DNA of 46,903 nt from an uncultured Pelagibacteraceae bacterium (GTDB taxonomy: Bacteria > Pseudomonadota > Alphaproteobacteria > Pelagibacterales > Pelagibacteraceae), in the NCBI GenBank assembly GCA_902515205.1, contig CABXTU010000007.1, forward strand, positions 1 to 46,903, in the 5' to 3' direction. The position numbers were made by a program, and so were the translations under genes. How positions within the stretch are numbered: position 1 is the stretch's first letter; every line of letters starts with the position of its first letter. The notes beneath the pieces were generated by a model. That model was not told where the DNA came from and made no database searches. It was given only the letters and a program-made list of their open reading frames with translations. This document shows, piece after piece, positions 33,588 to 42,418 of this stretch.

Positions 33588-33888
33588 CTTCAACCTCCTT
33601 TTCGATTTTTTTAATTCTTGTATATTTTGAAATAATCAGATGAGCATCAACCAATGCCTGAGTTATCAAAATAAAAATTCCACACTTAATTAAGAAAGAG
33701 TTTCCTTGAATTATGCCACTTGCTAAAAATAAACATCCAGCATTGGCTAATACAAAAAATATATTTCTAGCTGAATAAGGTACCTTTTCATTTTTTCCAA
33801 AAAAATAGAATATTAAACAAGCCTGGAAAATAAGTGTAGCTTTAGCAGCAAATAACATGGCCTTAAGTAAGAATGGGTCTGGTATCAA
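33562..33888 (-). CDS. Small polytopic membrane protein, 108 aa
   Basis: Three or four hydrophobic segments (about 8-30, 41-58, 60-85) followed by a charged C-terminal tail (KKIEKEVEDEKSDAKK) that should be cytoplasmic. The start is TTG at 33888, overlapping the herA stop (ATTGA) with GAGGAG a few bases upstream. No family recognised. Its position directly behind herA, coupled in translation, suggests it anchors or signals for the HerA/NurA complex, by inference. Confidence 0.6.
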   Translation of the reverse strand: MIPDPFLLKAMLFAAKATLIFQACLIFYFFGKNEKVPYSARNIFFVLANAGCLFLASGIIQGNSFLIKCGIFILITQALVDAHLIISKYTRIKKIEKEVEDEKSDAKK

Positions 33889-35567
33889 TTTGCTCTCCTC
33901 TTATCTATAGAAGTTATATTTGAGAAATCTTTAGCAAATTTTTTTCTTTGCTTAACAGATTCTTTGTCATCCCAATTTTCTACTGCAGTGATAAAGTTTT
34001 CATTTCCAATATCGTCATTGATTAATTCTGCATCAAATTTTATTTGAACTGGAAGAGAAAAATTTACTACTTGGCCACTAATTATACCTTGGCCATTTGC
34101 TAGATTTGGCAATTGCTTAGAGTCGTCTACACTTAAAGTTTCAGAGTCTCTAGTAGTTGCTCTTTGGTCTTTTTGATTGACCATTCTAAATACAATCTGA
34201 CTATTACACTGAGAAGCAATAGTTTCATCCAACCTAGAGGGTCTTTGGGAAATGATCATGACACCAGTTCCAAATTTTCTACCTTCAGTAATTACTTTTC
34301 TAATTGTATCAACCGATGGAAGGTTATCTTTATCCTCTGATCTTGAAGGAATGAAATTATGAGCTTCCTCAATTATTGTTAAGAAAGGGGGTATTTCCTC
34401 CTCGACTTCTTGTCTGTGTTTAAATAAATTTTCTAATAGAATTGAAACAATCGCACTAGCTGGAAGGTTTTCGTAGCCTTTAAGATATAGGATACTTAAT
34501 TGGCCTTTATTTACAATTTTTTCCGGCTCTGTCGCAGCATCTGGCAATTCCTCAAATTTTAATTTACTCATTTTTTGTCTGTGTCTAAAGTTGGTTTGCT
34601 CCATATTTTTTAACTTTTTGGCAACTTGGCCAAGACTTCTCACCACAACATACATAGAAGCGGGACGAATATTTTTGAATGATTTAGACGAGTCAGATGC
34701 ATACTCTCTTGCTTTTCGAACAAGCAGTTCAATATATTTTAACAAACTGCCACCTTCATATTTTACTTTTTCTAAAAGGGAGCTTAAAAAATCTTTTTGA
34801 GGATCTGTTAGTGAGTTTCCAAGTTTATCAATTAAAGTATAGATAATCTCTTTATCATCAGAGCTTACTGATAAGTTTGGATAAAATAATTTTACTTGGT
34901 TGTTTGGGTATAATTTTTTTTGTTTTTGAATAAATCCTAAATAATCACCATGAATATCAAGAACAACCATAGGATACTTTTTCTGCAAAAGTTCATCCAT
35001 TATTCTTCTAACCATTACTGTTTTACCAGAACCTGACATTCCAAAGATTGAAACATGTCTTGAAACTAGATTGTCAGCATCAATTTTAATTTTAACAGCA
35101 TCTCGTGCAAGTAAACTTCCAATGAATAAAGGATGTTCAGAGTCTAGATCTGAGATCAATAAGGCCTCTACATCTTCACTAGATGGATAGCTCACAGTTG
35201 CTGCAGGTCTAACCGGATAGTTTAAAGGCATTAATTTTAGATTATCTTTTAAAGTAAAACCTAAAATGATTACTTTGCAAATAAGCTCATCTCTTGTTGT
35301 TGGAAGAATAGTGTCTCTAATATCAATATTTTCATTAGTTAGTTCTTGTGCTGCTTCAGTTGGAAAAAATGCATTTGAACTTTCAATTGAAGAAATTTTA
35401 CCCCAAACTGTTACTGGAACAACATTGCCTTCACTAGATGGAATTTTTGACTCTGTAGTGATGATGTCACCTTTTTTTGCTTTGTAATTTTTTAAGCTAA
35501 AGTAAAACTCGCTTATATTTGTCTCACCTAAAACTGTACCGATAGATTTCCATTTTTTAGTATTCAT
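33885..35567 (-). CDS. herA: HerA-type DNA translocase (FtsK/HerA ATPase)
   Basis: 560 residues. The N-terminal 150 residues look like the HAS beta-barrel; then Walker A GMSGSGKT (176-183), DIHGDYLGF (204-212), Walker B FLTIIEEAH (395-403) and the family-typical ITEGRKFGTGVMIISQRPSRLDE (about 426-448) with QRP sensor. HerA forms hexameric rings that translocate on duplex DNA and work with the nuclease NurA in archaeal end resection; bacterial HerA partners often belong to phage-defence systems (family knowledge). The ATG overlaps the nurA stop as TAATG. Confidence 0.9.
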   Translation of the reverse strand: MNTKKWKSIGTVLGETNISEFYFSLKNYKAKKGDIITTESKIPSSEGNVVPVTVWGKISSIESSNAFFPTEAAQELTNENIDIRDTILPTTRDELICKVIILGFTLKDNLKLMPLNYPVRPAATVSYPSSEDVEALLISDLDSEHPLFIGSLLARDAVKIKIDADNLVSRHVSIFGMSGSGKTVMVRRIMDELLQKKYPMVVLDIHGDYLGFIQKQKKLYPNNQVKLFYPNLSVSSDDKEIIYTLIDKLGNSLTDPQKDFLSSLLEKVKYEGGSLLKYIELLVRKAREYASDSSKSFKNIRPASMYVVVRSLGQVAKKLKNMEQTNFRHRQKMSKLKFEELPDAATEPEKIVNKGQLSILYLKGYENLPASAIVSILLENLFKHRQEVEEEIPPFLTIIEEAHNFIPSRSEDKDNLPSVDTIRKVITEGRKFGTGVMIISQRPSRLDETIASQCNSQIVFRMVNQKDQRATTRDSETLSVDDSKQLPNLANGQGIISGQVVNFSLPVQIKFDAELINDDIGNENFITAVENWDDKESVKQRKKFAKDFSNITSIDKRRAN

Positions 35568-36880
35568 TATCTTGCTAATCCTCCTAATGGTCTATTTCTC
35601 CAAGACCTTACTTTTTTTGATAAAATTTTTACTGCTAAGCTAATTGTGTTTTGATCTTTGCTTCTGATTGCTTGTTTTAATAAGTGGGTTGCATAATATT
35701 TTCTTGAGGCCTTACTCATCCAATTTGGAATTTTGGCGAATTTATCAACTACATTTAAACCTACTGGAAAACCATAGTTGGGCAATAATCTTGCTGTAGC
35801 TAATATATATTCGTAATCTTTAATTAAATTTTTGGATTGATTTAACGACTCAATTCGAATAGGTGCTGAGTGGTCATTAACCTTAATGTATCCAATATGA
35901 ACACTTGGAAAAGAGTCCATTTTATCTTCCCAAGCTGAGCCTGAAGTAACACTAAATCCTTTAATTTGTTTTTTTACTTCTAAAGGTTTAATTGCTTGGC
36001 CACTTTGTAAGATGATTTCTAATAAGTGAGAGTCTGTTATTTTGTATTTTTTGATTGTTGAAAGGGTATTTTTAAAATCCTTTTCGGAGATAGTTCCTTT
36101 AGATTTATAACTGTATAATAAGTTCTTGATATAAGGAGCTGAATTTGATGTTTCTACTATTCCGTATGTAGGGAACTTACTTTTTTTAATAGAGTTTAAA
36201 GCCTCTAGATAGACATTGATGAAATGTCTTGCTTCAGCATTAAGTTTATTTTTATTGTAAAAAGGCAGCATATTCTCTACTGCAAATTTAGTAAAAGTTG
36301 GAAAACCCATTACTGTAAATGGCATTACAGTTGCTTCAATCGGGCCATGTAAAAAGCAGTAATCAAACTTTCTGTTTAATAAGATGTGTTTAACAATAGT
36401 AACTGCTTCAAAGATTATTCTAGCACCATCTTTTTTCTTATTAAGCATTTGATCTTCATCAAAGTCATCTTCAGCAAAGTCATATAGTTCATTCTTAGGA
36501 TCATATAGATCACCCAAAAACACCATACTTTCCTCAAAGAATTCTCTGTTTTTATCTGCAGCGTCTGGTTTAACGATATAGCTACCAGTTCTAATACTTA
36601 GAGGAGCACTACTAATGATAGATGTTTTATCAACACCTCCATCTATAAAACATGCAGTTTTACATTTATTTTCAGACCAAAAATCTTTTCCTTTGTATTC
36701 AAGGTTTGTAATTAAATCTGCATCTTCTAAAATTTTTTGAACAGTCAGCGCTACTTGAGCACTAACATCTAAGAAATTATTTTGAACTTTGGGAGATGCA
36801 TTTACTGCATTTTTTACAAAATTTGTAAATAAAGATGAATTTGCTTTTATTTTATTTTTAATATCTATTTCGTTACGCAT
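35567..36880 (-). CDS. nurA: NurA-domain nuclease
   Basis: 437 residues from the ATG at 36880, preferred over an upstream TTG because GGAG lies 7 nt before it. ACFIDGG with Asp80 is the first metal-binding motif of NurA; the C-terminal half has APIRIESLN and LLPNYGFPVGLNVVDKFAKIP, which match the family's PVRLE and GYPxxLxxAHxxA blocks. NurA is a 5'-3' exonuclease/endonuclease fed by HerA. Directly followed by herA. The large middle region (about 100-300) is specific to this lineage and unrecognised. Confidence 0.82.
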   Translation of the reverse strand: MRNEIDIKNKIKANSSLFTNFVKNAVNASPKVQNNFLDVSAQVALTVQKILEDADLITNLEYKGKDFWSENKCKTACFIDGGVDKTSIISSAPLSIRTGSYIVKPDAADKNREFFEESMVFLGDLYDPKNELYDFAEDDFDEDQMLNKKKDGARIIFEAVTIVKHILLNRKFDYCFLHGPIEATVMPFTVMGFPTFTKFAVENMLPFYNKNKLNAEARHFINVYLEALNSIKKSKFPTYGIVETSNSAPYIKNLLYSYKSKGTISEKDFKNTLSTIKKYKITDSHLLEIILQSGQAIKPLEVKKQIKGFSVTSGSAWEDKMDSFPSVHIGYIKVNDHSAPIRIESLNQSKNLIKDYEYILATARLLPNYGFPVGLNVVDKFAKIPNWMSKASRKYYATHLLKQAIRSKDQNTISLAVKILSKKVRSWRNRPLGGLAR

Positions 36881-37209
36881 CTGTTTGCTCCACAAAAATA
36901 TTGAATTTTAGTTCCTCGAATGTTTGTTCGAATAGTTAGTTTTTTATTTGAAAATTTATGAAATTTTCTTTTTAAGATTTCTTTAAACACCCAGCATGAC
37001 TTTCTACTAGTAAAACTTCTTAAATGAATTTTAGTAACTTTGTTTTTAGCCTTAGTATTGCAGCTGTTGAACCCTTGGTTATGAAAGAAAGGAAAATGGA
37101 GAGATCCAAGGGTACGAGGCGTTGCCGCTACTCGACAGCTGCTTTTACTAAAGCTAATTACATTATTTGAAGTTGACCTCCTATGTTTATGTTTGTTATT
37201 AATTTGCAT
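36865..37209 (-). CDS. Doubtful basic ORF, 114 aa, overlapping a structured RNA
   Basis: An open frame from ATG 37209 to the nurA start region (16-nt overlap). In favour: no stop for 114 codons in AT-rich DNA, and the ATG sits exactly 6 nt after the shared upstream element, as at rmuC and the ATPase gene. Against: no family resemblance, codons in its middle (CGA, GCG, CTC, AGG) unlike the neighbours, and a 110-nt segment that is a well-paired RNA. It may be non-coding, or a coding sequence with an embedded regulatory RNA. Confidence 0.3.
   Translation of the reverse strand: MQINNKHKHRRSTSNNVISFSKSSCRVAATPRTLGSLHFPFFHNQGFNSCNTKAKNKVTKIHLRSFTSRKSCWVFKEILKRKFHKFSNKKLTIRTNIRGTKIQYFCGANRCVTK
37047..37156 (-). 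ncRNA. Candidate structured RNA upstream of nurA-herA
   Basis: On the minus strand a nested fold can be drawn by hand. Outer helix: 10 bp, 37147-37156 with 37047-37056 (one U-G). Inner helix: 8 perfect bp GCAGCTGT/ACAGCTGC (37135-37142 with 37060-37067). It opens into a branch with two arms: a hairpin at 37115-37134 closed by GCG/CGC with a GCAA (GNRA) tetraloop and a CGAG/CTCG base, and an 8-bp stem ACCCTTGG/CCAAGGGT (37106-37113 with 37071-37078) with a 27-nt pyrimidine-rich loop. The U-G pair and GNRA loop fix the strand. It does not match tRNA, tmRNA, RNase P or SRP RNA as I know them. Confidence 0.65.
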
Positions 37210-37217
37210 ATTATTGA

Positions 37218-37243
37218 GATATTCGTGATTATTCTAATTCCAA
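37218..37243 (-). promoter_or_regulatory. Shared upstream element, copy 1 (RNA/nurA operon)
   Basis: Minus strand: CTTGGAA, 14 nt, then AATATCT preceded by CG (CGAATATCTCAAT), ending 6 nt before ATG 37209. The same design (TTG hexamer, N14-15, WATATCT) precedes the sigma gene, the ATPase gene and rmuC. It reads into the structured RNA and nurA. Confidence 0.5.
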
Positions 37244-38152
37244 GTCTTTTTTATTTTTAATTAAAATATTTTTTAATTCATTAAAACTTTTCTCAGATAT
37301 TTGTCTTACTCTCTCTGATGAAATATTAAATTTTTTGCCTAATTTAGTTAATGATAATTCTTCATTTGATCCTAATTCACTTAATTTAGTACAGTTTAAA
37401 ATTTCTTTTTCACGAATTGGTAGACCCCTTAAAAAATCATTTTTTATTTTATTAAATTTATCTATATTTAAATTTTTATTTACACTTTCTTCTATATTTT
37501 CACCTGAACCAGTTAAGTCCCATTTATTTTCATTGTCTTTATCATTTTCTTGATTATTAACTTCTTCATCACCAGACTCTGTTTTCGTATTAACAAATTT
37601 ATCTATTAGTTTTACTTCATCTATTTTAATATCAGTCTCTTTAGAGATAGATCTATAGTCCGCTTCAGAAAGAAATTTTTTATTTAATTTAAATTGAGGT
37701 ATTTTTGAATACACACTTCTTGTACTATCCGAGTCAGGAAGTTTACCACAAATTCTGTTTGTATTTAAAAGTCTTAAGTGTGTTTTTAGTTTGAATTGAA
37801 GCTGATTACTCGCAAAAACACAAAAGTCAAATTTTTCTTTGTATTGAAAATTTGTTTTACTGTTAGTACCCCACAGATACTTTTCAGTAGCCTCCCAAAC
37901 AATCAAATGAGCTGTTGATCTTATGTCTTGTAAAGAATCATCAGTGATTTTTGAATTTTCATCTGGTTTAACAAAATATCTTTCAGGTCTGTATTTTTTG
38001 TTAAATGAAATGATTATGTTTTCTAAAACAGTTCTTTCAGAATTAACTTTGTGATTTAAGAAATGATTGAACAGATCAAGCCTAGCTTGACCAGCAAAAT
38101 TTTCATCAGTAATGTCTGCGGTGGGCAGCGCACCTGATAATGTTTTGTACAT
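37229..38152 (-). CDS. Divergent sigma-70 family factor (RpoH-like)
   Basis: 307 residues. The C terminus (about 243-298) is a sigma region 4: LPIREKEILNC, then ELSLTKLGKKFNISSERVRQISEKSFNELKNIL, with the helix-turn-helix and the characteristic ERVRQI. Around 108-155 a degenerate region 2.3-2.4 can be aligned to RpoH (FDFCVFASNQLQFKLKTHL; SVYSKIPQFK in the place of the RpoH box). An acidic linker (190-225) separates the halves. It is not a housekeeping sigma factor and not a standard RpoH. Its own leader carries the same upstream element as three nearby units, so it may regulate itself and them. Confidence 0.7.
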   Translation of the reverse strand: MYKTLSGALPTADITDENFAGQARLDLFNHFLNHKVNSERTVLENIIISFNKKYRPERYFVKPDENSKITDDSLQDIRSTAHLIVWEATEKYLWGTNSKTNFQYKEKFDFCVFASNQLQFKLKTHLRLLNTNRICGKLPDSDSTRSVYSKIPQFKLNKKFLSEADYRSISKETDIKIDEVKLIDKFVNTKTESGDEEVNNQENDKDNENKWDLTGSGENIEESVNKNLNIDKFNKIKNDFLRGLPIREKEILNCTKLSELGSNEELSLTKLGKKFNISSERVRQISEKSFNELKNILIKNKKDLELE

Positions 38153-38272: not shown

Positions 38273-39232
38273 CTAAATTAATTCTGAAGCGTTAAAAAAT
38301 ATGAAATTATCTGATTTGTCCACATATTTAGACCATTCTTCCAGTTTCATCTGCGCCCAATCAGCATCCTGTTTAGTTATTTTTCTACCCTCAGTTGTCT
38401 GATTATCGTTAGTGATAATATTTAAGCCTCTCTCAACTGTAAATATTCCTATATTTATGTCGTCTAAAAAAGTTACGAACATCCTTTCATACATAGTTTT
38501 GAAAGCTTTAGTTTCATCTGACTTTACAAAAACCGGTGATTTAAATGACTTAAAATTAAGATAAAAATTTTTTAATGTGTTTTCTAGTTTATTTTTATCC
38601 ACTTTCTTTTTTAATAATTGGTTAATTTTTACGCCATTATAAAATTCAACATTTTTTACATTGGATGCTAAATCTGCAAAAAATTTAAATGAATTTTTGT
38701 AACTTTTTACAATTGCTACATTTTGGTTAACACAGTGATCAGGCAAATAAGCATCAACAAAATAAATTTTATCAGAATATTTAAAAATTCTTTTAAGTTT
38801 GGCGGTAACATCTTTTTTAAGTTGATTTTGAGGTATATTTCTATTTGGAAACCATTTGTTTGGTGTTAAATCTTTTATTTTTTTTGTAATTAGAGTCCTT
38901 TTATTCAAAATTTCGTCAATCGAAATATTTGTTTTTTTTTGATTTTTTGAAATTTCATTTGTGAATAATATGTCTACTTCAACGTTACTTAATTTTTCAA
39001 CTGGTTTTATATTTTTAGATAATAGTTGCTGAAGCTCTTTAATAATCAAAGAATTTGATCCAATAGCTAAATTAGGGTCAGAAATAATTTTTCTGTTATC
39101 AAAATACAAAAGATTTTCTCTATTTAAAAATAATTCACCAAAAAAATTTAAAATAGATAAAGATTCTTTGTAATCTAATTTTTTTTGTAAATCTAAAAAA
39201 AAATCTTTTGAAATTTTAAATGAATAAATCAT
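38273..39232 (-). CDS. Hypothetical partner of the AAA ATPase, possible PLD-like domain
   Basis: 319 residues, cytosolic. The C-terminal half has DKIYFVDAYLPDH (154-166) and MYERMFVTFLDDINIGIFTVERGLNII (about 248-274), an arrangement resembling the phospholipase D-like/MIT-C group (IxIIDPY...HDRxxx...GxGLDI), but the usual catalytic His-x-Lys is not evident. The N-terminal half is unrecognised. It starts 5 nt after the ATPase gene and is surely in the same operon. ATPase plus small effector pairs are common in phage-defence loci; that role is inference. Confidence 0.5.
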   Translation of the reverse strand: MIYSFKISKDFFLDLQKKLDYKESLSILNFFGELFLNRENLLYFDNRKIISDPNLAIGSNSLIIKELQQLLSKNIKPVEKLSNVEVDILFTNEISKNQKKTNISIDEILNKRTLITKKIKDLTPNKWFPNRNIPQNQLKKDVTAKLKRIFKYSDKIYFVDAYLPDHCVNQNVAIVKSYKNSFKFFADLASNVKNVEFYNGVKINQLLKKKVDKNKLENTLKNFYLNFKSFKSPVFVKSDETKAFKTMYERMFVTFLDDINIGIFTVERGLNIITNDNQTTEGRKITKQDADWAQMKLEEWSKYVDKSDNFIFFNASELI

Positions 39233-39237
39233 AAATA

Positions 39238-41238
39238 CTATCCTAATTCTTTAATTCTATCTGCGAACAAATCATCTTTCCACGGTTGAACATATTGTCC
39301 ATTTTTATTAATTTTGATTTTTGTAATAGAAGATCCTTTTTTAAAATTTGGTTTTACATAATTAACAGAGATATTCTCAGGAGTTATCTTATTTTGCCGA
39401 ATTGATTTTAAAATTCTTAAAAGAAAATCTTCGCTATGTGTCTCAATTATAAATTGATTATTTCTTTCAAGTGATGATTCTACAATAAGGTCTGCTAAAT
39501 CTGCCTCAAGTTTTGGGTGCAGATGAACTTCTGGCTCTTCTATTAGTATAATTTTATTGTTGGCTATAATGCACTGAACTATAAAAGGTAAAATTAATGG
39601 GTAACCAAGACCAATATGCATACTCGATACTTTAATTTTAGAATTTTTAGGTAAAAAAACTATTTCATAATAGTTTCCAGAAGGTTCTATTTTTACCTTG
39701 TATGGAATTTCTAATTTATTAAACCATTTATTGGTAGCTTCAGAAATTTTTGGATTTGCTAATAATTCTCCTAAGTTCTCTGCCGATGGACCTACATAAT
39801 CAGTTTGTAATCCTTTTACAAAATATCTTTTTGGAATTTGTCTTAAACCCGGTGCCACAACAAATCTGTGCATTACTTGTGTTACAGACTCAAGTGCAGA
39901 ACTTGATGAGTTCGAATATCTATCAGGATAATAGCCATTTATAATATTCACATTCAAAAATCTTGAAGGACTACCAATTAAATATAATAAAATATTAATT
40001 AAATAATTGTCTGTTTCTTGTGTTCTAAAAGGGCTTATTCTTTTCGATTGAGAAGGTTTTTTCATAAAAAAACCATTATAAAAAATTAAATCTTTGTTTT
40101 TAAGACAAATATCGTTTTTAAAAAAATTGATGAAGTTTGGTTTAGTAGATTTTTTACCTTTAAAAAAATTTATAAGTTTAGATAAATCTTTTTCAAGTTT
40201 TTTCTTATCTTCATTAAGAAATCCACGTCTTATTTCCCAGTCCATGAATTCATCTGCAAAAACAATGAATGTATCATTACCATTTTTTATAAATTCTTTA
40301 ATTTTATTTTGAATATTATTCTTATTTTTTTTTCTTATTTCATCACTTTTTTTCATAAAAGGTCTTAAGGCATTCATTCTTTTTGCATATCCACCATCAA
40401 TGTTATCCTCATTCTTCTGTAATTTTGTCTCTAAAATATTAGGATTTGTTTTTAAAAAATTTAAGAATTTTTGAAAAAAATCTCTAATCAAGTTATTTTC
40501 AACATTCAATAAATCATTATATGTTTCACCTAGACTTTTAATTTCGATGCTATTAACATCAAATTCTGTCTCATAGTAATAGGGGTCATAGATGCTCTTA
40601 TAAATATTTTCATCTAAATTTTTCCTTCTATCCAATCTACTTAAAAAAAATTCACCTGATTTAAATCTCTTTATTTCCTGTAAATTCAATGCAAACTGGC
40701 TACCTTCACTAAACATTACATGTTTTTTAAATTGTACTGAAACTTTTCCACCAGGATTTGAATAAGACATCTTATCTAAAATTGTTCTATCTTTCACTAA
40801 ATCTTTATTTTTATAAAAATTCTTTGAATATTTAAAAGTATAAGTTAAAGATTTTTCCTTATTTAAGATTTTTTTCTCTTTTTTTGAATATTCATTTGTT
40901 TCTATTCCAATTGTTATATTTGATTTTTTATTACCACTATTAACTAAACCCTCGTAGCCAACATCTATATCTAAACCACCTTTCCCCCTTAACTCTGTTG
41001 GAGACTCGTAATTAAATGGAGTTAATTTATTAACACCATAACTTTGTCTATATAATCTTAGAGCCTGATTTATAGTACTTTTTCCTGCACTGTTTTTTCC
41101 AAAGATAAGATTTATCATAGGAGCAAATTCAACCTGATTTTCTCCTTTAAAAGCTTTTAAGTTACCTATTTTTACTTTTGATAAGAAAATTCTAGGGAAT
41201 TCAGTAGTATTTTTTTTTGTAATTTTCTTCTTTTTCAT
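39238..41238 (-). CDS. AAA15/SMC-like ATPase (DUF3696-type C terminus)
   Basis: 666 residues from the ATG at 41238; a TTG 42 nt upstream is disfavoured because the ATG sits at the fixed distance from the shared upstream element. ABC/SMC-type ATPase: Walker A FGKNSAGKST (46-55), Walker B ILIEEPEVHLHP (about 564-575), switch ETHSEDFL (about 600). It ends with a GQYVQPWKDDLFADRIKEL block resembling the DUF3696 tail. Long lineage-specific insertion between the motifs. Such overcoming-lysogenization-defect or RecF-like ATPases occur in repair and in anti-phage systems with a neighbouring effector, which fits the 319-residue partner. Confidence 0.8.
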   Translation of the reverse strand: MKKKKITKKNTTEFPRIFLSKVKIGNLKAFKGENQVEFAPMINLIFGKNSAGKSTINQALRLYRQSYGVNKLTPFNYESPTELRGKGGLDIDVGYEGLVNSGNKKSNITIGIETNEYSKKEKKILNKEKSLTYTFKYSKNFYKNKDLVKDRTILDKMSYSNPGGKVSVQFKKHVMFSEGSQFALNLQEIKRFKSGEFFLSRLDRRKNLDENIYKSIYDPYYYETEFDVNSIEIKSLGETYNDLLNVENNLIRDFFQKFLNFLKTNPNILETKLQKNEDNIDGGYAKRMNALRPFMKKSDEIRKKNKNNIQNKIKEFIKNGNDTFIVFADEFMDWEIRRGFLNEDKKKLEKDLSKLINFFKGKKSTKPNFINFFKNDICLKNKDLIFYNGFFMKKPSQSKRISPFRTQETDNYLINILLYLIGSPSRFLNVNIINGYYPDRYSNSSSSALESVTQVMHRFVVAPGLRQIPKRYFVKGLQTDYVGPSAENLGELLANPKISEATNKWFNKLEIPYKVKIEPSGNYYEIVFLPKNSKIKVSSMHIGLGYPLILPFIVQCIIANNKIILIEEPEVHLHPKLEADLADLIVESSLERNNQFIIETHSEDFLLRILKSIRQNKITPENISVNYVKPNFKKGSSITKIKINKNGQYVQPWKDDLFADRIKELG

Positions 41239-41246
41239 ATTTAAAA

Positions 41247-41273
41247 GATATACGTTGAAATCGTAATAATCAA
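41247..41273 (-). promoter_or_regulatory. Shared upstream element, copy 3 (ATPase gene)
   Basis: Minus strand TTGATT, 15 nt, TATATCT (as CGTATATCTT), then 6 nt to ATG 41238. If this is a promoter the transcript would be leaderless or nearly so. Confidence 0.45.
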
Positions 41274-41286
41274 TTTTCAATTGTAT

Positions 41287-41320: not shown

Positions 41321-42418
41321 ATGGACATGATTCTATTAATTATCTTAGTTATATTGCTTAGTGCAACTTTAGGTATCTTATACCTAAATTTAAGATCAAA
41401 ACCCAAAGATGACAATGAAAACCAAGAGGCTGAGGAAATAGCCAACTTAAAAACTGAAATTGTTACATTAAAAGATACCTTAAATAATACTATCAACACT
41501 TCGCTTGGTACAATGTCGACTTCCTTTAATGCTCTCTCAACAGGAGTTACAAAGGATATGACTGAGGCTCTTACTAAAGTTGATGAGAAAGTTGGTAACT
41601 TTAATCAACAAGTACAATTACTAAATCAAAGCCAAGAGGGAATTACTAAAATTCTAGCAGGGGTTAAAAAGTATGGAACTTTGGCTGAATATTCTTTGGA
41701 TGCTTTGATAAAGGATTTGTTACCAGCATCTCAATTTATGACTAATGTTAAAATGAAAGAAGATACCAGTGAAAATGTAGAATTTGCAATTAAGCTTCAA
41801 GGAGATGTTTTGGTTCCAGTAGATAGTCATTTCCCAGTGGAAAAATTTAAAGCAATTACTGATGCACATGAAGCTGATGATAAAAGAGAAGTTGCTGATG
41901 CTAGAACAAAATTAGCAAGTGCATTTAAGGCTAAAGCAAAAAGTGTTATGGAAAAATATATAGTTCCACCTAAATCAACAGATTTTGCAATAGTGTATGC
42001 ACCAACAGAGAGTCTTTATAAGGAATTGACTGAATATCAAGATCCAAGCACTAAAGAACTATTAACTCAAGAACTAATGAAAAAATATAAAATAGTAATT
42101 TGTGGCCCTAATACTCTTTCAGCTTATTTACAATCCTTACATATGGGTTTTCAATCACTAAAAGTTCAAAAAGGAGCTACAGAAATATATAATCATCTTA
42201 AAACTATCACCACAAGATTTGAAAAACATTTTGATAACATAATTACGCTTAGAAAAAAATTAGAAGAAGCGATGAGCGTGGTAGATAAGTTTGGTACTGA
42301 TGCAAGATCAATAAGTAGAACTCTAGAAAATATAAAAGATCCCGAGCAGGTTGAGAAAGCTGTTCAAACAGAAAATGTAGAAAAATTTGTTGAAAGAAAT
42401 AAACAGCTTAAAAATTAA
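41321..42418 (+). CDS. rmuC: DNA recombination protein RmuC
   Basis: 365 residues. N-terminal transmembrane anchor (about 3-22), a coiled-coil region (about 35-105), then the RmuC domain: KYGTLAEYSLDALIKDLLP, VLVPVDSHFPVEKF, YIVPPKSTDFAIVYAPTESLY and GPNTLSAYLQSLHMGFQSL. The domain is PD-(D/E)XK-like. RmuC limits inversions at short inverted repeats and is linked to RecN/RecBCD-type repair (family knowledge). First gene of rmuC-MGME1-like-sbcB. Confidence 0.93.
   Translation: MDMILLIILVILLSATLGILYLNLRSKPKDDNENQEAEEIANLKTEIVTLKDTLNNTINTSLGTMSTSFNALSTGVTKDMTEALTKVDEKVGNFNQQVQLLNQSQEGITKILAGVKKYGTLAEYSLDALIKDLLPASQFMTNVKMKEDTSENVEFAIKLQGDVLVPVDSHFPVEKFKAITDAHEADDKREVADARTKLASAFKAKAKSVMEKYIVPPKSTDFAIVYAPTESLYKELTEYQDPSTKELLTQELMKKYKIVICGPNTLSAYLQSLHMGFQSLKVQKGATEIYNHLKTITTRFEKHFDNIITLRKKLEEAMSVVDKFGTDARSISRTLENIKDPEQVEKAVQTENVEKFVERNKQLKN

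Follow-up and report, generated by a model that had tools for sequence, protein, structure and literature searches.

We show that a conserved RNA with a three-way junction is encoded, on one strand and in its entirety, inside a translated-looking small gene of SAR11 bacteria, and comparison among relatives indicates that the same bases of this small ORF are under both protein and RNA selection. The element lies in the window, that is, the whole stretch of 46,903 nucleotides analysed here from an uncultured Pelagibacteraceae bacterium (contig CABXTU010000007.1), whose genome comprises 993,618 bases on 42 contigs. The first-pass annotation had proposed a branched RNA ahead of nurA-herA; a structured RNA is indeed present on the minus strand but the picture of a free-standing one is not supported, as it sits inside a conserved ORF for a small basic protein. 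The RNA lies in the first half of this ORF, which is placed between a sigma-70-like gene and nurA. The ORF and the parts of the element are as follows:

36865..37209, minus strand: ORF of a small basic protein (~110 codons) holding the RNA (comparison with relatives, folding model)
37177..37182, minus strand: AGGAGG, two AGG (Arg) codons, internal Shine-Dalgarno-like sequence (kept in 27/28 homologous ORFs)
37047..37156, minus strand: branched structured RNA element, wholly within the reading frame (folding, covariation)
37146..37156, minus strand: 5' strand of the outer helix, 11 bp with one U-G, partner 37047-37057 (folding, covariation)
37047..37057, minus strand: 3' strand of the outer helix (folding, covariation)
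37135..37142, minus strand: 5' strand of the inner helix, 8 bp, partner 37060-37067 (folding, covariation)
37060..37067, minus strand: 3' strand of the inner helix (folding, covariation)
37115..37134, minus strand: GNRA arm, with 4 bp, a UA bulge at 37129-37130, 3 bp and a GCAA loop at 37122-37125
37071..37113, minus strand: third arm, an 8-bp stem (37106-37113 with 37071-37078) and a 27-nt pyrimidine-rich loop at 37079-37105

The branched fold is real and is the strongest in the window. The minimum free energy of positions 37047-37156 on the minus strand is -42.8 kcal/mol (z -6.0), none of 200 dinucleotide shuffles folded as well, and the element is the best fold among 4254 stretches of 110 nt (whole window, step 22, both strands, tRNA genes included), with the next two best folds outside the element located at tRNA genes. 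The expected enrichment in GC over the surroundings was evident (0.455 vs. 0.249 in the 500-nt flanks and 0.279 in the window), and folding also bore out the 8-bp arm with its 27-nt pyrimidine-rich loop. Two other details of the original description required adjustment: of the nested helices of 10 and 8 bp, the inner one stands but the outer one is actually 11 bp long with one U-G pair, and the arm with the tetraloop does end in a GNRA sequence (GCAA) but is not one unbroken helix, since 4 and 3 bp flank a 2-nt UA bulge. At the junction of the third arm and the inner helix (37068-37071), the window copy is without 3 nt, in frame, of a conserved CUUUC. A lambda-like boxA, CUUUC and then AACA, was also weighed for this junction and rejected, the AACA part not being conserved.

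Compensatory changes among relatives support the RNA. In the near clade (18 distinct elements, 34 pairs), 93.6% of the alignment cells were paired, double changes occurred in 6/34 pairs (1/500 shuffles) and in 18 cells (0/500), and further pair types were no more numerous than in shuffles (165/500) for this clade alone. A model built from these 18 elements matched L015/L041, L018 and L019, which belong to another genus group, as well as L040, at E-values, which are rough, of 1.7e-16 to 1.2e-6, and also the degenerate L039 at a similarly rough E of 2e-6. The 23 distinct rows that resulted, fitted to the RNA model and hence biased towards it, showed 92.6% of cells paired, and 16/34 pairs (59 cells) with double changes that still pair, a level reached in 0/500 shuffles and well above slid versions of the same alignment, which reached no more than 8 pairs and 17 cells. 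A free alignment of 18 sequences had double changes in 15/27 predicted pairs, and when changes were counted along the NurA tree, both sides changed with the pair kept in 23/100 steps, compared to 2-5 in six slid controls. The compensatory-change test that had been suggested for this element was therefore passed. The strand assignment, previously based on the agreement between a wobble pair and the GNRA loop, held as well: G-U cells outnumber A-C cells (48 vs. 18, with one pair supplying 13 of the 48), which favours an RNA of the minus strand, and the GNRA pattern and the UA bulge are each found in 22/23 rows, L039 being the exception for the former. L039 has lost the GNRA arm but still has the ORF. 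Single-sequence folding matches the consensus in most members; for L019 the minimum-energy fold differs from the consensus and only the centroid resembles it. Taken together, the RNA is unusually well supported for a computational prediction.

The comparison also shows a protein layer. The frame is open in 28/28 homologous ORFs, with ATG and phase also kept, and survives length changes, for example by 3 nt in the window and by 15 nt in L018, L019, L040, and L041. Among 20 near-clade ORFs, the synonymous difference was reduced over the RNA (0.27) and in the AGGAGG stretch (0.13) relative to the C-terminal part (0.45) and the leader (0.43), and the corresponding dN/dS values were 0.56, 1.26 (a short stretch), 0.28 and 0.47. 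Permutation of synonymous codons failed to reach the fold energy in 16/16 branched members tested (z -3.4 to -6.1; the best case, in L040, was 1/200 as good) and had no effect on C-terminal control segments from seven members (z -0.7 to +1.1). For three hairpin variants (L016, L017, and L058), synonymous permutation gave no clear separation (z -1.1 to -1.9, 11-34/200 as good), whereas z was -3.0 to -3.8 against usage-sampled codons.

AlphaFold modelling of the L034 homologue (16-row alignment) predicts disorder for residues 1-60, approximately the RNA-coding part (pLDDT block means 44-51), and a confident beta-alpha-beta-beta domain for about residues 62-110 only; the C-terminal 52 residues of the small protein carry a net charge of +11 to +17. 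Foldseek gave no match to the L034 model at E<=0.001, neither Foldseek nor VIA recognised a known RNA-binding fold among the families listed, and the best VIA match, to pterin dehydratase (Z 5.2, 55 residues, rmsd 4.0), is too weak to name the fold. The window protein had no NCBIfam or PADLOC match, and for five or six members the hits in PHROGs and Pfam at E<=1 were all weak and below the Pfam cut-offs (best E 0.0096 and 0.013). Two loci (L039:4744-4992 and L053:1199-1474) have a further relative of the small protein, with no RNA-model match, between the RNA-bearing copy and nurA, so that the RNA goes with the position next to the exchanged upstream module (below). Finally, two contigs of one MAG (L033 and L040) carry a near-clade and a diverged version of the ORF and RNA, representing either two loci or a mixed bin.

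The neighbourhood of the small ORF in the window consists of the following genes:

35567..36877, minus strand: nurA (Pfam NurA; ATG start placed by relatives, an earlier TTG at 36895 also being open)
33885..35567, minus strand: herA (Pfam DUF87/HerA_C; PADLOC and NCBIfam HerA models, the NCBIfam match below curated cut-offs)
37229..38152, minus strand: sigma-70-like gene, immediately upstream, a member of the exchanged module (Pfam Sigma70_r4; NCBIfam sigma-32 below cut-off)
38273..39232, minus strand: hypervariable gene in the middle of the exchanged module (no family)
39238..41280, minus strand: AAA_15/AAA_21 ATPase, first gene of the exchanged module (family models)
41321..42418, plus strand: rmuC, chromosomal neighbour (Pfam RmuC, 3.2e-49)

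In near relatives the stop of the small ORF overlaps the nurA ATG. Over all loci, a gap of 3-29 nt separates the end of the ORF from the matched NurA segment (which does not always begin at the start codon), except in L018, where the ORF ends 19 nt inside that segment. In the window, a changed stop (36865-36883) makes the overlap with nurA a few codons longer than in near relatives. The reading that we favour, tentatively, is that the element is a cis-acting translational control element bound by the basic protein of its own gene; we infer this mechanism, while the structure and the constraint are what the comparisons above show. The RNA would then exert its effect on the mRNA in cis, at the start of the conserved small-protein/NurA/HerA unit, and ribosomes entering the ORF would meet AGGAGG 10-20 nt before the stable branched fold. 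The encoded basic protein would be the most likely ligand, binding the GNRA/UA-bulge arm and the junction, and its binding would determine the number of ribosomes that continue to nurA, the start of which overlaps the stop of the small ORF in the near clade. The constant NurA-HerA output would thereby have its own control, whichever upstream module is plugged in, and nurA-herA would presumably form an operon regulated by the element. The autogenous step is our guess by analogy with ribosomal-protein operons. The strongly basic C-terminal part of the protein speaks for it as the ligand, and the loci L016, L017, and L058, where no module precedes the small ORF, speak for a control element at the head of the unit; among the points against this reading are the retention of the fold without AGGAGG in L018, the loss of the GNRA arm in L039, the weaker result for the hairpin variants and the fold searches that recognised no RNA-binding fold. 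After this favoured reading, the order of plausibility is pausing without a ligand, then a trans-acting RNA, then a hinge at the DNA level.

Alternatively, AGGAGG and the downstream structure might together be a ribosome-pausing or recoding signal, slowing ribosomes (e.g., for folding, mRNA decay, or coupling) with no protein ligand, which we regard as possible but doubtful. The first base of AGGAGG precedes the outer helix by 26 nt in the near clade and by about 16-22 nt elsewhere (by reading), a spacing that pausing would accommodate. In the 27/27 ORFs that have it, the sequence is in phase and sits 8-13 codons downstream of the ATG, although the leaders vary from 24 to 39 nt; L018 is without it and keeps the fold. 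AGG is used at 54/54 of the AGG-AGG codons vs. 8/239 of the other Arg codons of the same ORFs, in sequences that are related rather than independent; this choice, like the constant phase, counts in favour of the preferred reading. The low share of AGG in five neighbouring genes (9/86 Arg codons) is consistent with pausing. The 16S 3' end, found in 9/12 tested genomes, was GGAUYACCUCCUUUCUAAGGA in all nine, and thus AGGAGG can pair with the ribosome. AGGAGG does not seem to be simply a ribosome-binding site, since no usable in-frame start follows it at the usual spacing in the near clade (by reading). Internal initiation was rejected by reading: near-clade ATGs after AGGAGG were seen only out of frame (the window and L044), and of the loci from other genus groups and L040, where an ATG follows closely, L016, L017, and L058 alone have it in frame, while in L018, L019, L040, and L041 it is out of frame. 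Frameshifting was rejected as well, as the shifted frames after AGGAGG close within 0-8 codons (27/28) and 0-15 codons (25/28), and only L041, L016, and L039 keep one shifted frame open for more than 15 codons; this early closure of the alternative frames argues for no conserved frameshift product. In dnaX-type cassettes, an internal Shine-Dalgarno-like sequence followed by a structure slows ribosomes and causes frameshifts; the order of AGGAGG and structure is similar here, but the conserved shifted-frame product is lacking. The early closure counts against the recoding version of this alternative, and pausing alone would need no conserved GNRA loop or UA bulge.

It is also conceivable, although we consider it rather unlikely, that the transcript is the precursor of a trans-acting RNA, possibly in an RNP with the encoded protein, whose 16S-like loop pairs with the Shine-Dalgarno sequences of other messages. 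The pyrimidine-rich loop shares 6-10 nt with the 16S tail (...CUCCUUUCUAAGG), with single-loop p values of <=0.05 in 16/26 rows, most of the diverged rows included (L016 0.002, L039 0.000, L041 0.014, L018 and L019 0.026), although p is 0.052-0.112 in five rows and 0.19-0.42 in another five (L024, L026, L033, L042, and L044), and these 26 distinct rows (merged from 28) are related to each other, the null model is of composition only, and the target was chosen post hoc. The likeness of the loop to the 16S tail is accordingly a lead and not a finding. By reading, the 16S-like motif in L018 and L019 is in a different reading phase from that of the near clade, which would fit this reading, and small basic proteins beside CcsR-like sRNAs are known in alphaproteobacteria, at least from the part of the CIN1 study considered here (PMC10253847). 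The RNA model, on the other hand, had no match outside the small ORF in 397 genomes, which argues against a trans-acting form. A pseudoknot between AGGAGG and the pyrimidine loop was attractive by eye but was dropped, because 8-75% of shuffled loops pair equally well.

The element is narrowly distributed. The 21 NurA-related loci are from SAR11 (18 Pelagibacteraceae, one Candidatus Pelagibacter, and two from one Proteobacteria MAG). A profile of the small protein matched 14/397 genomes of the order, in two genus groups, and the RNA model matched 10/397 of these genomes once each, always inside the small ORF, and none of the other 387, in a search run at stricter filters that may miss weak copies. 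NurA was found in 13/297 genomes of the family, two of the matches being weak (G212 and G254), and no element was seen by eye in G212. In the class-level sample, the small-protein profile matched 1/289 genomes, the window's own. That the element could not be matched to a known RNA class was borne out by the searches: Rfam 15 at the gathering threshold found four tRNAs in the window and nothing at the element, Rfam at E<=1 on seven relatives gave three weak hits with none in the element, and a tmRNA was detected at the element by neither ARAGORN nor Rfam. As for a phage or mobile origin, there was no DNA match in 50,697 phage records, where protein matches were at chance level only (E 3-7), and no relative of NurA or the small protein was confirmed in viral contigs with one single query protein each, a search that reaches close relatives only. 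No description of the element was found in the titles and abstract openings of the literature on SAR11 NurA/HerA, NurA-HerA with a sigma factor, and SAR11 defence islands, nor in those on Pelagibacter structured RNAs among the matches listed; the element is apparently undescribed.

The locus around the element is modular. Three large same-strand ORFs precede the small ORF in 15 loci (the window and 14 relatives, 5-kb upstream flanks), and a divergent ORF, cut by the flank, opens the stretch in 11/15; this ORF was scanned, and identified as rmuC, in the window and in two of the loci that lack the module. All first genes scanned (11/11, window included) match AAA_15/AAA_21, the ten middle genes scanned have no family above cut-off, and the third genes match Sigma70 above the curated cut-off in 5/11 cases (window included), only below it in 4/11, and not at all in 2/11 (L037 and L019), and thus the label "sigma-like" is assigned partly by position and mutual similarity. 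Across the 105 pairs of the 15 loci (blastp, E<=1e-3), the first gene and NurA are homologous in all 105, the sigma-like gene in 31 and the middle gene in 17. By sequence comparison, the ATPase, the variable gene and the sigma-like gene are swapped as a block, while the RNA-bearing ORF, nurA and herA persist, and the RNA marks the hinge between the two. The module is absent in L016, L017, and L058 (genus group g4); there the unit starts with the small ORF, which has a simple hairpin, and rmuC lies beyond a divergent gene (scanned in 2/3). In these module-less loci the divergent gene between the small ORF and rmuC is long (L079:2833-4803, L080:2894-4876, L081:524-2803), with a match to a Cro/C1-type HTH in L079 and to the FtsZ C-terminal domain (FtsZ_C) in L081, and upstream of the small ORF of L016 and L017 we noted by eye TTGACA/TTGTCA followed by a TATAAT-like sequence. 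PADLOC models for HerA and for defence ATPases match the two ATPases of the locus, and this polymorphic locus beside rmuC may be a candidate defence system.

Such exchange raises a third alternative, namely that the inverted repeats serve as a hinge in the DNA, i.e., a recombination or protein site for the exchange of the upstream module, which we judge improbable. In its favour, sigma-like proteins are <40% identical in 60 of the 74 pairs, among the 21 loci, whose NurA is >85% identical, and in 9 of the 13 locus pairs compared (the nine differing in the sigma-like gene) DNA homology sets in close to the small-ORF ATG, from 4 nt before it to 18 nt after it and still ahead of AGGAGG. For instance, L028 and L029 are 95.2% identical over 6.6 kb from 11 nt after this ATG, with no DNA match upstream. 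Another three of the 13 pairs share the sigma-like type and match further upstream. However, the homology between L042 and L039 begins at nurA and not at the repeat, ordinary homologous recombination would suffice for the exchange, and the G-U excess (48 vs. 18 A-C), the GNRA variation and the choice of AGG codons all point to an RNA of one strand. A more ambitious reading combines several of these elements: a new RNA class lying wholly in coding sequence would form an RNP with its own protein, mimic the 16S tail, and sit at the hinge of a probably anti-phage six-gene locus with a swapped ATPase/variable/sigma-like module, keeping NurA-HerA output controlled; as a whole, we find this unlikely. 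Finally, that the ORF is untranslated here and the RNA a plain non-coding leader with an incidentally open frame is highly improbable. The predicted disorder of the encoded region (pLDDT block means 44-51) and the dN/dS values (0.56 for the RNA, 1.26 for the short AGGAGG stretch) would fit it, but all 28/28 ORFs keep the ATG, the phase, and a stop-free frame despite length changes, and purifying selection acts on the C-terminal domain, which is read in the same frame.

Several known systems share features with the one described here. FtsO, the MS2 operator and rncO are functional RNA structures that overlap a protein gene; the overlap is alike, and what differs here is that the two-layer selection is measurable across many genomes. 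The loops of cuckoo RNAs, like the loop here, are related to the anti-Shine-Dalgarno sequence, but they are CCUCC hairpins, whereas the window loop has CUCUCC and UCCUUUC and no CCUCC, which does occur in the L018 loop. A Pfam scan of six of the small proteins (E<=1) found no DUF1127, unlike the cuckoo/CIN1 case. In the alphaproteobacterial CIN1 locus, the portion of the source considered here describes a small protein (CcaF1, DUF1127) that is co-transcribed with the CcsR sRNAs (PMC10253847); to that extent, the two systems are alike in being alphaproteobacterial with a small protein beside an RNA, and differ in that our element is inside the coding sequence and forms a three-way junction. The Pelagibacter rpsL motif, with a bulged stem and a three-stem junction, is described, in the part of that study considered, as found only in Pelagibacter and marine metagenomes (PMC2704228). 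The rpsB leaders and the rpsL motif are structured cis RNAs as well, but, on the same partial basis, they are untranslated and precede ribosomal protein genes, whereas our element is within an unrelated gene; identity with the rpsL motif, located upstream of rpsL, was rejected given the position of the element between the sigma-like gene and nurA, and the main text of that study, as far as it was covered, does not mention nurA, herA, or a sigma factor. DUF4297-HerA, as presented in the part of PMC11291478 considered here, is an anti-phage system of a HerA ATPase with a nuclease partner; the combination of HerA and nuclease is similar in our case, with NurA as the partner, linked to an exchanged module and an RNA, and a candidate for defence only.

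In conclusion, the element is probably best viewed as a cis-acting mRNA structure of a known kind, its unusual feature being that it is fully coding. To our knowledge, an RNA that is supported by covariation and shares every base with a conserved bacterial protein has seldom been documented, and searches that target intergenic regions would miss such RNAs embedded in coding sequence. Should the protein bind the sequence that encodes it, one short gene would combine dual coding with autogenous control. Further, the RNA exposes, in one of the most abundant bacterial groups, SAR11, a recurrent NurA-HerA locus of modular build next to rmuC, in which a sigma-like gene is exchanged and which represents a testable candidate defence system.
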